From positions 22,720,168 through 22,784,167 of the forward strand of contig NC_092569.1 in assembly GCF_037975245.1 (NCBI RefSeq): 64,000 nucleotides of DNA, read 5' to 3'. This DNA is from Apostichopus japonicus. Its lineage: Eukaryota; Echinodermata; Holothuroidea; Aspidochirotida; Stichopodidae. Below the pieces are notes generated by a model that was not told the origin of the DNA, did not search any database, and worked only from the letters and a program-made list of their open reading frames with translations. A program made the position numbers and the translations under genes. Below are positions 17,045 through 26,677 of the stretch, one piece after another (the stretch's first letter is position 1; each line of letters starts with the position of its first letter).

Positions 17045-17122
17045 ATGATCAGCAAGTTTTATTCAATGTTCCAAGTTTTATTTTTCCTTTGGACAACTAG
17101 CTGCCTCGTTTTTCGTGAATCG
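17045..17122 (+). CDS. gene 2 exon 1, signal peptide
   Basis: ATG follows the conserved GTCAAA. The 26 residues begin [20 protein letters not shown], a short basic start and a hydrophobic core, and end LVFRES before GTAAGT in phase 0. The same exon, nearly unchanged, opens genes 3, 4 and 5. Confidence 0.9.
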
Positions 17123-20100
17123 GTAAGTTCTAGTACTTCTATATTATTAATTAAATCCAGCCTAAATGTCAAAGTAAATTCTGTTTTGGTGCCTTCTAAT
17201 GTACCACACAGAAAATATAGAAAAGAATTTTAAAAGCATTTCATTATAAACCTTCTTCAGTCATCTGTCGTAGTATAGATATTTTAACGTACTTGGTCAT
17301 TAACAGAATTTGTGAGAAAAATTGTGATTGTTCAAACGTTGGTATAAGATATTGGTAATAGAGGCATCATGATTCCTCAAACTTAGTACTATTTTCATCT
17401 TTGGATCCCAGTATTGGTCTATTTTGAAATAAAATCGATGGTCTGAATCGCTTCAAAAGTGCGTGACAATAATTCAACAAAATAATGATAACCGCAAAGG
17501 ATATGCCAGTGATTGGAGTTAACGTTGAAGTTAATTCAGGTATACCTTTTTCAAATTAAATTAAGTACTTTCAAGTTATGTTAAACTCTTCACAAAAGAT
17601 TCTCGAAAAACTTGAAACAAAAGAAAATCGATCAAATCTTTAACAGCAATTCTCCTTTTGACTATATTTTAACAAATCAAGAAAAATTTAAAAAAGAAAG
17701 GGATTCAAAATTCATTATATATTATACTTTTTGCAAAGATGTTGAAATTAGATTTAAATTATATTATATCTCATGCTTTCAATTTCTTATGTCTACATTT
17801 ATCTCAGAAATAAAAAGCGTAAACTTTTAGACTTTCTGCAATGTATTGAAGAAGCCACTATTCATGATGTAAAATAAAGGTGTTAGATGAAAGATCGGAT
17901 AATAGGGATGGAATATTTATTTTTCAAATTAGATAAATTATTGTAATATTAATAGTCACTTAATAACGTTCTGGAACCATTTAAGACACAAACATGTAGT
18001 GAAATATTCAAGTTTTTTTAAATATATTAGGTATTAATGTTGTATAAAATATTGAGCTTTGTTGTGTTATTAATTGATAATCCTATTTTTTACCTATAAA
18101 TTTAAACTGAAAATTAACCTGTTGATGGTATATCTTCCTCACAGCTACAACTTCAGAACGTTCATGTGTTTATAAAAGACGTGCTAAAATTGTTAATAGG
18201 ATTTTAATATTTAATATAGCAGACATAATGCAATTTGTCATAAATGCAAGTTTTACCGATAGAATTAAACAAATACTGCAGTTTCAATTGTACTAATAGA
18301 AACGTTATAGCTAAGATTTACATGACCATACTTTGGATATCTCGCTTCAGTTTCTTAACTTTATAATATTTAACGAGAAAAAATGTTTTTAATTAAAATA
18401 TTACTATTCAAATTTTCATCCGTCGACTTCAATTCACATTGAAACTTATGATTTACTATAATGCTACCAATTTTGTATTCCGAAGTTAAAAAATAAGATT
18501 TTCTTTAGTGAACAGTAATCTATCGATTAAGCAATGGAAATATAACAAAGTTAAATTTTATTTGAGTAACCAATTTAGCGTAAACTTTATCTGATTTACC
18601 GAGGATAAAGAAAATTAAAGTTAATGCCAAACGTAACAATTTTTGTACTAATAGTTGTGTCCAATTCGCCAAGTTTAAATGAGTGAAGGAAAATATACAT
18701 GATATATGTATCATATGAATGTACAAAGTTCTTTTCGCAAAGTGTATGATAAAACTTCAAGCAACTTTATTAATAATTCTTAAGATTTGCAGATTCTGTC
18801 GAGTATTTGTAGTTTACCTATATATACATTTTTGTATCCTTTAACAATTGCGAAAAAAATAGCAAATCAGTCATATTGCACTTGGATTTGGCGAGAGAAT
18901 GAGTCAATTAAATTTCACCTTCTAAACTTCAAAGCCATTGGCATTCGTTCTTATCAACTGCTCCTTCATTGAATTACTTAATCAGGCTTAGAAAAGCTAA
19001 TGATGGCAGAATTCAGAAAGTAAATAAAACATGTTCTTCAATTTAAAATAAAAGAATAGACCAGCATACGTAAAATGTATCTCGTCGTAATATCATCTAT
19101 CAAATCATAGTTTATGTGTAGCTTCAAGAAAGTATAATATATCATATAAAAACTCAAACAAAACAAATTTTAAAAATCGAATCGATGTTTTGTAAAAAAG
19201 ACCCTTTCTTTTTCACTTAAAGTTAAAGGTTCGGTGACTAACTTTTTTTTATTCAAACATTTTTTGCCACCAATAATTTGTCCAACATAAAACATTCACG
19301 TCGATATGAGTTTTTTTTTTTAAGGTAATAATCAATTACTATTTAGTCTTGGTAATGCTCGGTACGCCTCATAACGTTATAACGTCATTATATTTTCAAC
19401 TATTAAGTGCATGTGAAATTCGCTTCACCGGAGCAGAGCTATGTCAATCGTAGGTAAGCTGCGAATTGCGACCTTCGTTACAGGACAAAAAATAAATAAA
19501 AACGGACGAAAAGTGTAATGTCAAATTAATTACTAAGAGTAAAACGTTCAACTATATACTTGTAAGATAAAGCATTCCGCAACGTAATATGGAACCATGT
19601 TGATGTAGGCCTATACTTATTCATATTTGTTCTTAGTTTCATTTATCTACAAAAGTATGTGAGTTGTGGTTATTTTTGCGTATTGTTCCATAATTTCCCA
19701 CCCTCATAAGATTTTTTTTAATTTACAAACAAAATCAGGAAATCCTAAGTGAATGTAAAACATTGATTTGTACTATAAATATAAAGGAAACACATATTTT
19801 GCTTAATTTCAATGAATTTTACAAATCATTATTTGTCTAATACTTGTATGAGTATTTATTATAGCTCATACAAAGAATTATGATTCGAGATCAATATATA
19901 TTCTTGGTTCAACAGAACGTAACCCATTCCAGCAATTGTCTTATCAGAATGTTAAGCCCAAATTCATTGCGGTTTCGAACAATACTAGTTCCGATAGTTT
20001 CTTCTCGTATACTTACTTAGAGTAAAAGATTCCGGGATACAGAATACATTCGGAAAGACCTGACATCCAACTAAATTGGCTGAGACTTTTTTAAATATTC

Positions 20101-26100: not shown

Positions 26101-26677
26101 ATGTGCAATAAAAAAAGAGAATTATGGTCATATGGGTACACCTGACTACATTAAAATATTCATCAACAACTAATATCGTATAAGTATTATCAATAATACC
26201 AAAATCCAATAATAGCTATTAACCAGAGAAAAAGCCTCGCATGATCTCGTTTCCCTAAAACTAAATTCATACATTGGAATAATAGAATTGACGTGAAGAA
26301 TGTTAATCAACCAGTCTGGTTATATGTTAGTGATTACAGAAAATGATATTGAGAAGGTTAAGCATGTATCAGACGTACAACAGTTATATTGATGATTGGT
26401 ATTGACGGTGTGTCTTTGTATTTGATTCTTTCTTCCAGGAGATGCTCTAAGTTATCACCTGAACCAGCAGTTTACAACAAAGGACCGAGACAATGACGCT
26501 TATGGTTCTTATAACTGTGCAAGTTATTATTATTATTATAACGGTGCATGGTGGTACAAGAGTTGTCATCATTCTAACCTGAACGGTGTCTATGCCGCTT
26601 ACTATTTCCAGTGGAATAACCTCCCCGGAAGTTATTATTATGTCAAATTTACAGAGATGAAGATCCGCCCTATCTAA
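17045..26677 (+). CDS. FREP gene 2: signal peptide, half FReD, TIL-TILa-EGF, complete FReD (532 aa)
   Basis: Eight exons: 17045-17122, 22082-22127, 22568-22740, 23004-23271, 23581-23792, 24078-24395, 24867-25131, 26439-26677. All introns are GT-AG, exon-end phases run 0,1,0,1,0,0,1, and the total is 1599 nt with TAA. Residues 1-26 hold a hydrophobic signal peptide and 27-41 a polar linker. Residues 42-188 are a FReD N-terminal half without the calcium site and pocket; 189-259 are a TIL domain. Residues 260 to about 321 are TILa/VWC- and EGF-like, and about 322-532 a full FReD ([38 protein letters not shown]). N-glycosylation sequons are present (NSS, NMT). It is predicted to be a secreted, disulfide-rich recognition or matrix protein. 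Intact, so likely functional; the ligand is unknown. Confidence 0.9.
17123..22081 (+). other. gene 2 intron 1 (~5 kb), no gene inside
   Basis: AT-rich, with no sustained coding frame. It aligns along most of its length with intron 1 of gene 3 (29457-34520) and gene 4 (43736-48818). Open frames shared with gene 4, such as the one starting [10 protein letters not shown] (20505), change length between copies and look like products of duplication. Confidence 0.7.
22082..22127 (+). CDS. gene 2 exon 2, short linker
   Basis: A 46-nt exon between acceptor GGTTAG and donor GTGAGT. It encodes [15 protein letters not shown] and leaves in phase 1. The match is very close in gene 3 (34521-34566, NENIL end) and gene 4 (48819-48864, TIDGSSN). 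Confidence 0.8.
22568..22740 (+). CDS. gene 2 exon 3, start of first FReD
   Basis: Enters in phase 1 and leaves in phase 0. Encodes [30 protein letters not shown] and SSGGWT, the classic FReD beginning. It has three cysteines (RDC, GQC, VYC), one more than the second FReD start in exon 6. Confidence 0.88.
23004..23271 (+). CDS. gene 2 exon 4, middle of first FReD
   Basis: 268 nt, phase 0 to 1. Encodes [43 protein letters not shown] and YSGENTG. It is homologous to exon 7 (same size class, same phases) but diverged. No last FReD exon follows it. Confidence 0.9.
23581..23792 (+). CDS. gene 2 exon 5, TIL (trypsin-inhibitor-like) domain
   Basis: 212 nt, phase 1 to 0. Eleven cysteines in the order of a TIL domain: [40 protein letters not shown]. 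The QCGC end is how TIL passes into TILa in zonadhesin, mucins and von Willebrand factor. TIL domains in those proteins are structural; inhibitor activity cannot be read from this. Confidence 0.85.
23873..23976. repeat. (AT)n microsatellite in gene 2 intron 5
   Basis: Near-perfect AT dinucleotide tract with one G substitution near 23919. Intron 5 of gene 3 lacks it. Confidence 0.97.
24078..24395 (+). CDS. gene 2 exon 6, TILa/VWC-like and EGF-like segment plus second FReD start
   Basis: 318 nt, phase 0 to 0. The first part ([22 protein letters not shown]) resembles TILa. It is followed by an EGF pattern ([22 protein letters not shown]) and then [19 protein letters not shown] of the second FReD. 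Genes 3 and 4 are two codons shorter at the hinge (TRPPKDC against TSLIPAKDC). Confidence 0.85.
24867..25131 (+). CDS. gene 2 exon 7, middle of second FReD
   Basis: 265 nt, phase 0 to 1. Encodes [41 protein letters not shown] and YSGTAG, and ends on the donor GTTTGT. Confidence 0.9.
26439..26677 (+). CDS. gene 2 exon 8, FReD C-terminal exon with TAT-codon run
   Basis: Encodes [42 protein letters not shown] and EMKIRPI, then TAA. Five TAT codons in a row before NGAWWY lengthen this loop by two or more residues against genes 1 and 3. Confidence 0.9.

Follow-up and report, generated by a model that had tools for sequence, protein, structure and literature searches.

Two fibrinogen-related domains in each gene of a tandem array

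The window analyzed here is a stretch of 64,000 nucleotides from the sea cucumber Apostichopus japonicus (C9:22720168-22784167 of the 671.6-Mb genome, C9 being the contig that bears it). It is filled by a plus-strand tandem array of genes in which half of a fibrinogen-related domain (FReD) precedes a complete one. Genes 2, 3, and 4 were each modeled as eight exons separated by GT-AG introns, with compatible phases and no internal stop (Table 1). The initial annotation had proposed that these three genes join the N-terminal half of a FReD to a cysteine-rich block and a second, complete FReD, and both the eight-exon models and Pfam searches bore out this layout. The product lengths it had predicted, 526-538 amino acids, were exact, with 532, 526, and 538 amino acids for genes 2, 3, and 4, respectively. 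The first exon is hydrophobic, encodes 26 amino acids, and is of equal length in seven copies. For exon 2, we retained the longest phase-compatible candidate, which has a good donor and acceptor conserved in three copies.

Pfam detected two Fibrinogen_C stretches in each of the three whole proteins. The C-terminal one is a complete FReD, spanning positions 2- or 3-220 of the 221-position profile. The first FReD of gene 2, scanned apart, spans positions 2-131 only, in line with the earlier claim that it lacks the exon carrying the calcium site and ligand pocket. Since exon 8 (profile 141-220, with the calcium motif) has no counterpart in the first FReD, the half FReD would correspond to what we take to be the A and B subdomains, without the P lobe or the final strand, which folds back into the B sheet. 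Intron 4 of the four window copies yielded no exon resembling exon 8 and its calcium motif (exon profile, E up to 5, open stretches of at least 12 amino acids), and in the flanking and distant copies that were scanned the exon-8 profile matched nothing in the corresponding interval. A lost C-terminal exon hidden in intron 4 is therefore unsupported by these scans.

The block between the two FReDs had been labeled TIL-TILa-EGF and described as zonadhesin/mucin-like, and both labels hold in part. In each of the three whole proteins, TIL scored above the Pfam cut-off, whereas TILa reached 18.8-24.4 bits (cut-off 27) and EGF_3 reached 22.0-27.5 bits (cut-off 28.5). EGF_3 exceeded its cut-off only in the isolated exon 6 of gene 2 (30.8 bits, beside TILa at 22.9 bits, under the cut-off, and Fibrinogen_C 2-45). 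The likeness to zonadhesin and mucins is confined to the TIL/TILa piece, as no VWD or C8 domain matched at E 0.01 in the three whole proteins. Fibronectin type III (fn3) and immunoglobulin families gave no match in them at the same threshold, and the collagen repeat family gave none. In genes 2-4, the block contains 18 cysteines, the half FReD 3, and the complete FReD 4 (5 in gene 4).

Table 1. Gene and exon positions in the window (window coordinates).
Feature	Position	Strand	Basis or remark
Gene 1, 5' end beyond window: half FReD, 12 residues, complete FReD	1..4607	+	In-frame deletion of the TIL-TILa-EGF block
Gene 2, whole	17045-26677	+	Eight-exon model
Gene 2 exon 1: start codon and signal-peptide-like stretch, 26 amino acids	17045..17122	+	Equivalent exons in genes 3, 4, and 5 begin at 29379, 43658, and 63112
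Gene 2 exon 2, 46 nucleotides	22082..22127	+	Conservation
Gene 2 exon 3: start of half FReD, bears extra third cysteine	22568..22740	+	Pfam Fibrinogen_C 2-45/221
Gene 2 exon 4: remainder of half FReD, phase-1 end	23004..23271	+	Pfam Fibrinogen_C 45-131/221
Gene 2 exon 5: TIL domain, phase-1 start	23581..23792	+	Pfam TIL 1-55/55, 36.3 bits
Gene 2 exon 6: TILa-like and EGF-like part fused to start of complete FReD	24078..24395	+	Pfam
Gene 2 exon 7: middle of complete FReD	24867..25131	+	Pfam Fibrinogen_C 45-133/221
Gene 2 exon 8: C-terminal lobe, calcium motif, ligand loops, stop codon	26439..26677	+	Pfam Fibrinogen_C 141-220/221
Gene 3, eight exons, 526 amino acids, layout of gene 2	29379..39065	+	
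Gene 4, eight exons, 538 amino acids, layout of gene 2; exons 7-8 and introns 6-7 diverged from genes 2/3	43658..53580	+	
Gene 5 exon 1	63112..63189	+	Complete gene, extends beyond window to window coordinate 73918

The half FReD accompanies the TIL domain elsewhere in the genome

A genome-wide TIL search was carried out, in which 150 of 572 candidates were scored and 149 used for pairing (142 on C9, 6 on C20, and 1 on C14); with about 150 candidates scored per search, the genome-wide counts are lower bounds. A TIL match was considered paired when a half-FReD-type exon 4 lay within 2.5 kb upstream on the same strand. Exon 4 was found directly upstream of 43 of the best 44 TIL matches, and the distance between the two was 201-769 bases over all pairs. 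In the controls, none of the 149 TIL matches had an exon 4 downstream on the same strand, and none had one on the other strand. TIL and exon 4 likewise preceded every exon-6 match tested (32/32; the test used the first 32 of 150 exon-6 rows, the 44 top-ranking TIL rows, and the 43 exon-4 rows paired with them).

Seven distant TIL loci, megabases away or on other contigs, were examined. Six of them, L031 on C20 and L032-L036 on C9, carry exons 3 to 8 in the family order, and in all six loci bearing a half FReD the exon 4/exon 5 junction, read by eye, is a phase-1 GT-AG junction. Part of the EGF-like piece is missing from L034, and exon 8 is in pieces in L033 and L035. The seventh locus, L037 (C14), possesses TIL, TILa/EGF, and FReD, with no half FReD within about 5 kb upstream. 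Judged from sequence, the odd half-plus-complete layout is no local accident.

Among the matches listed, FReD, TIL, and TILa/EGF-FReD exons are spread over most of C9 (about 0.9-36 Mb), with others on further contigs, and the lower-scoring TILa/EGF-FReD exons are mostly unpaired with TIL or half FReD. One such locus, L030 (C9:14551000-14560999, minus strand), combines TILa/EGF with a complete FReD; the roughly 3.8 kb upstream of it contained neither TIL nor half FReD, and it may represent a further layout.

Copies and diverged paralogs around the window

The surrounding 264 kb hold seven complete copies. In the 200 kb of flanks, four further complete genes were identified, G0, G5, G7, and G8 (the exon-8 acceptor of G0 was picked by phase alone), together with the partial G6, with G9, which is interrupted at the end of the stretch examined, and with three diverged paralogs, D1, D2, and D3. 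The exon order of the paralogs was read from profile matches, their borders not being modeled. D2 encodes half FReD, TIL, one TILa/EGF exon, and a complete FReD through exon 8. With three TILa/EGF exons, D1 keeps the half-complete order through exon 8, the latter being fragmented. D3 has two TILa/EGF exons and keeps the order through exon 7. Exon 8 of D2 (window coordinates 104379-104795, minus strand, beyond the window) contains an insertion, tens of residues long and rich in Tyr and Cys, between WWY and the cysteine preceding SNLNG, near the ligand pocket.

About 114-115 kb downstream of genes 3, 4, and 5 lie their near copies G7, G8, and G9 (C9:22755000-22791000 versus C9:22870000-22905000), which reflect either a true segmental duplication or the retention of both haplotypes in the assembly. 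Window 9237-10246 (plus strand), between genes 1 and 2, contains open frames resembling the reverse transcriptase of a LINE-type (long interspersed nuclear element) retroelement, as judged by eye from the translation. Decayed fragments of FReD exons 7/8, remains of lost copies, sit between the intact genes at window 7298-7357, 10422-10508, and 59298-59549. Long AT repeats occur at window 23873-23976, 51974-52039, and 13157-13249. Rfam, tRNA, and viral-contig searches gave no matches.

A junction without the cysteine-rich block

In gene 1, the opening bases of the TIL exon run directly into the tail of the EGF-like part, as the result of a single in-frame deletion. An 87-base probe over this junction matched ten places in the genome at 99-100%, gene 1 included, all within C9:22.41-23.23 Mb. 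Of the 53 best exon-4 matches, 11 have no TIL match behind them, and in ten of these the junction lies 298-321 bases downstream. The eleventh (C9:22590695) sits 11.6 kb before a TIL match that is without exon 4, the sole such match among the best 47, and a long intron is possible there. The ten places with this stalk-less junction constitute a natural experiment on the cysteine-rich stalk. Intron 3 of gene 1 measures 1316 bases versus 255-263 in genes 2-4, and contains an 86-base repeat in 7.8 copies (window 313-984).

The half FReD is under purifying selection

Among genes 1-4, the six pairwise comparisons of the half FReD gave ratios of the proportions of nonsynonymous and synonymous differences (pN/pS) of 0.17-0.39, with P values of 0.00003-0.036; exons 6-7 of the complete FReD gave 0.19-0.40. 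Nine wider pairs of half FReDs gave 0.16-0.47, with P at most 1e-5 in eight of them, D2 versus L035 being the sole non-significant pair; as the pairs share branches, their P values are not independent. The signal resides in exon 4, exon 3 alone having too few changes. The half FReDs of G2, D2, L031, and L033 all retain open frames, with pN of 0.29-0.30 versus pS of 0.86-0.90 (P 7e-11 to 3e-11), and purifying selection on the half FReD is apparent even with silent sites near saturation. The initial annotation had taken the intactness of three copies as an argument for use. The copies being recent duplicates, this argument is weak alone, and it is strengthened by purifying selection, the distant loci, and the pairing.

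Variability is concentrated at the other end of the protein. Over ten genes, exon 8 has 2.73 distinct residues per column, versus 1.97 for the half FReD and 1.99 for exons 6-7. Constraint on exon 8 is significant in five of the six pairs, and not between genes 1 and 2 (P 0.17). The exon-8 loops were read with the residue roles that we assume for the FIBCD1 ligand pocket. All ten genes retain the last D-N-D of the calcium motif and lack the SYADG loop of FIBCD1, and two have the His after the last Cys; the ordinary single FReDs L002 and L003 of the same genome retain both the loop and the His.

Gene 4 has a mosaic structure. Its introns 2-4 are 77-93% alike those of genes 2 and 3, and the alignment of its introns 6 and 7 is hardly, if at all, better than for shuffled sequence. 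Compared with genes 1-3, its pS rises from 0.15-0.17 in the half FReD to 0.59-0.64 in exons 6-7 and 0.74-0.80 in exon 8. By these values, a 5' part has been joined to, or homogenized in front of, a different 3' part, making gene 4 a natural experiment in which the last two exons of a diverged lineage stand behind the 5' part of the family. The AT repeat at 23873-23976 falls within intron 5 of gene 2, close to the point at which the likeness to gene 4 ends.

Descent of the half FReD

In a tree of 39 FReD stretches, all 15 half FReDs formed one clade with support 99/96. This tree excludes D1, because of its broken exon 4, and the near copies G7 and G8; it also contains neither L003 nor L006, and L029 stands in for L008, the two being one locus. 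An earlier tree of 18 stretches, D1 included, likewise grouped its eight halves in one clade (98/99). The complete FReDs of the half-FReD genes do not form one clade in the 39-stretch tree. The sister of the half FReDs is the single FReD L029 (C9:16.70 Mb; support 97/97), which covers Fibrinogen_C 4-205/221 and whose exon 8 was found in two frames. The extra third cysteine is present in the 15 half FReDs and in L029, and in none of the 14 complete FReDs of half-FReD genes or of the six other tree rows in which the start is present. The half FReD of gene 2 is 47% identical to its own exons 6-7; on this value, and its grouping with distant halves, we reject a recent local origin of the half FReD by copying of exons 6-7.

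Comparison with known systems

In zonadhesin, mucins, and von Willebrand factor, TIL is followed by TILa, and a TIL followed by a TILa-like piece is shared by the genes described here. The VWD-C8-TIL order of zonadhesin and mucins is matched in its TIL alone, found in all three whole proteins. In tenascins, EGF-like repeats precede a C-terminal FReD. The adjacency of EGF and FReD is thus common to both, and tenascin-R is among the closest solved FReDs (4e-51), whereas the fibronectin type III repeats of tenascin are unmatched here, and the half FReD and TIL set the present proteins apart. Snail FREPs (fibrinogen-related proteins) bear immunoglobulin domains; those of molluscs have one or more at the N-terminus, unlike the present proteins. 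Among single-FReD lectins, FIBCD1 aligns with the complete FReD of gene 2 over 199 residues (7e-53) and techylectin 5A over 208 residues (6e-41). FIBCD1, ficolins, and techylectin 5A share the calcium D-N-D with all ten genes, which lack the SYADG loop of FIBCD1 and seldom keep the His after the last Cys, and genes 2-4 show no match to a collagen repeat family. Intelectins and the C-propeptides of fibrillar collagens have a FReD-like first half followed by something else. They offer a precedent for a partial FReD, whereas here an ordinary FReD is cut at an exon border and stands beside a complete one in the same chain. At the start of the complete FReD, Pfam COLFI scored 24.5 bits in gene 2, 22.5 in gene 3, and 27.4 in gene 4, for a cut-off of 26.2.

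Invertebrate FREPs, including the sea cucumber clusters, likewise have a C-terminal FReD and form large tandem families. Tandem FREP expansion in the sea cucumber is known, with 21 tandem FREPs on one scaffold of Apostichopus japonicus according to the accessible text of PMC5638244. That portion of the paper mentions no half FReD or TIL block, both of which are present here. No FReD-TIL protein was found in searches of an open-access library, paywalled papers and database annotation lying outside their reach. In the consulted part of a ctenophore paper (PMC11797021), TIL is named in a legend beside a C-type lectin, not a FReD.

One gene with two FReDs, and the alternatives

Because of the splice phases, the distant loci, the genome-wide pairing, and purifying selection, half FReD, block, and complete FReD appear to form one used gene, whose layout is, as far as the DNA tells, real and kept by selection. 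We propose that each gene probably encodes a single secreted FREP-type protein, in which the C-terminal FReD would bind and the half FReD would act as a structural or oligomerizing module. The signal-peptide-like start would direct secretion, and the complete FReD would be the binding head, with variable loops around its pocket. The half FReD would provide a non-binding structural core, perhaps linked to another chain through its unpaired cysteine, and the cysteine-rich TIL/TILa/EGF-like block a disulfide-rich stalk that can be lost. The tree and the phases suggest that the last exon disappeared from a single-FReD gene carrying the third cysteine, that this exon-8-less gene was fused through a phase-1 intron to a TIL-TILa-EGF-FReD gene, and that the fused gene was then duplicated many times. 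The single FReD L029, with its third cysteine, and L037, a TIL-TILa/EGF-FReD locus without a half FReD in about 5 kb upstream, support this origin.

Several observations weigh against this proposal. Over all 149 TIL rows, exon 4 lies upstream in only 60. This lower figure is partly a limit of the search, because both lists end at 150 rows and two of the three unpaired loci examined (L033 and L035) do have a half FReD; the third, L037, has none. The cysteine-rich block is not essential to all genes, because ten places have the block-less junction. Exon 4 of D1 loses its frame after roughly 73 of 89 positions, and the flank scan found no exon 8 for D3. Pfam is blind to the TIL of L031 and L037 at E 0.1, and these were matched only by our home-made exon-5 profile (2e-17 and 4e-13). 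The origin scenario relies on single loci, L037 having a long branch and L029 a last exon in two frames. The free cysteine is deduced from parity alone, and the cysteine total of gene 4 is even because of an extra cysteine in exon 8. Finally, the AlphaFold2 confidence (predicted local distance difference test) was 37 for exon 4 alone (eight rows) and 41 for the TIL exon alone (three rows), values that do not support folding of the half domain.

Alternative splicing could instead yield two products per gene: the long protein and, when exon 4 is spliced directly to exon 8, a short FREP of the usual kind. In genes 2, 3, and 4, the end of exon 4 and the start of exon 8 are both in phase 1, so that the skip is in frame and would give products of 267, 263, and 275 amino acids; in gene 2, where it was scored, the joined FReD reached 194.4 bits versus 195.0 for the real one (profile 2-220). 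The half FReD would then be kept as the first part of a second complete FReD, both products sharing the variable ligand lobe, and selection on it is indeed as strong as on exons 6-7. The phase match is expected anyway, however, because exons 4 and 7 are homologous, eight other exon skips are likewise in frame, and the half FReDs form a separate branch. We regard two products per gene as unlikely, and a splice switch as the reason for keeping the half FReD as marginally less likely again; if true, it would present one binding specificity in two formats per locus, across dozens of genes. The notion that exons 3-4 and exons 5-8 are two neighboring separate genes is already most improbable. Reading through exon 4 into intron 4 gives a short tail and then a stop, and a single AATAAA occurs in intron 4 of gene 4. 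Yet these introns measure only 304-318 bases, AATAAA is absent from those of genes 1-3, and the read-through frames are unequal (128, 128, 96, and 96 amino acids in genes 1-4). Moreover, the phase-1 junction is retained in all distant loci bearing a half FReD, and gene 1 reaches its complete FReD in frame through the TIL acceptor, a junction recurring in nine further places.

The half FReD might also be a passenger, a role-less leftover of the fusion spread by recent tandem duplication. The recent origin of genes 2-4, visible in the likeness of their introns 2-4, makes their intactness weak proof, the ratio of nonsynonymous to synonymous rates (dN/dS) is not clearly below 1 in exon 3 alone, and exon 4 is broken in D1. 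Against this, the third cysteine is kept in half FReDs that are 53% identical (G2 versus D2 and D3), and frames stay open despite the high silent divergence described above, making the passenger explanation already very unlikely. A role as matrix or regeneration factors, with half FReD and stalk serving matrix assembly as in tenascin-like EGF-FReD proteins, is possible, if doubtful. The expanded sea cucumber FREPs rise during visceral regeneration in the text available from PMC5638244, and EGF beside FReD is reminiscent of tenascin. On the other side, fibronectin type III is unmatched in the three whole proteins, the greater variability of exon 8 suits recognition better, and, in the accessible part of PMC2702171, a FREP of another sea cucumber is induced by lipopolysaccharide.

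Ficolins, FREPs, and angiopoietins bind their ligands through the FReD, a domain commonly regarded as one unit. In the family described here, of at least dozens of genes, selection maintains a FReD lacking its calcium and ligand lobe alongside a complete one. This suggests that the initial portion of a FReD can stand as a separate module.

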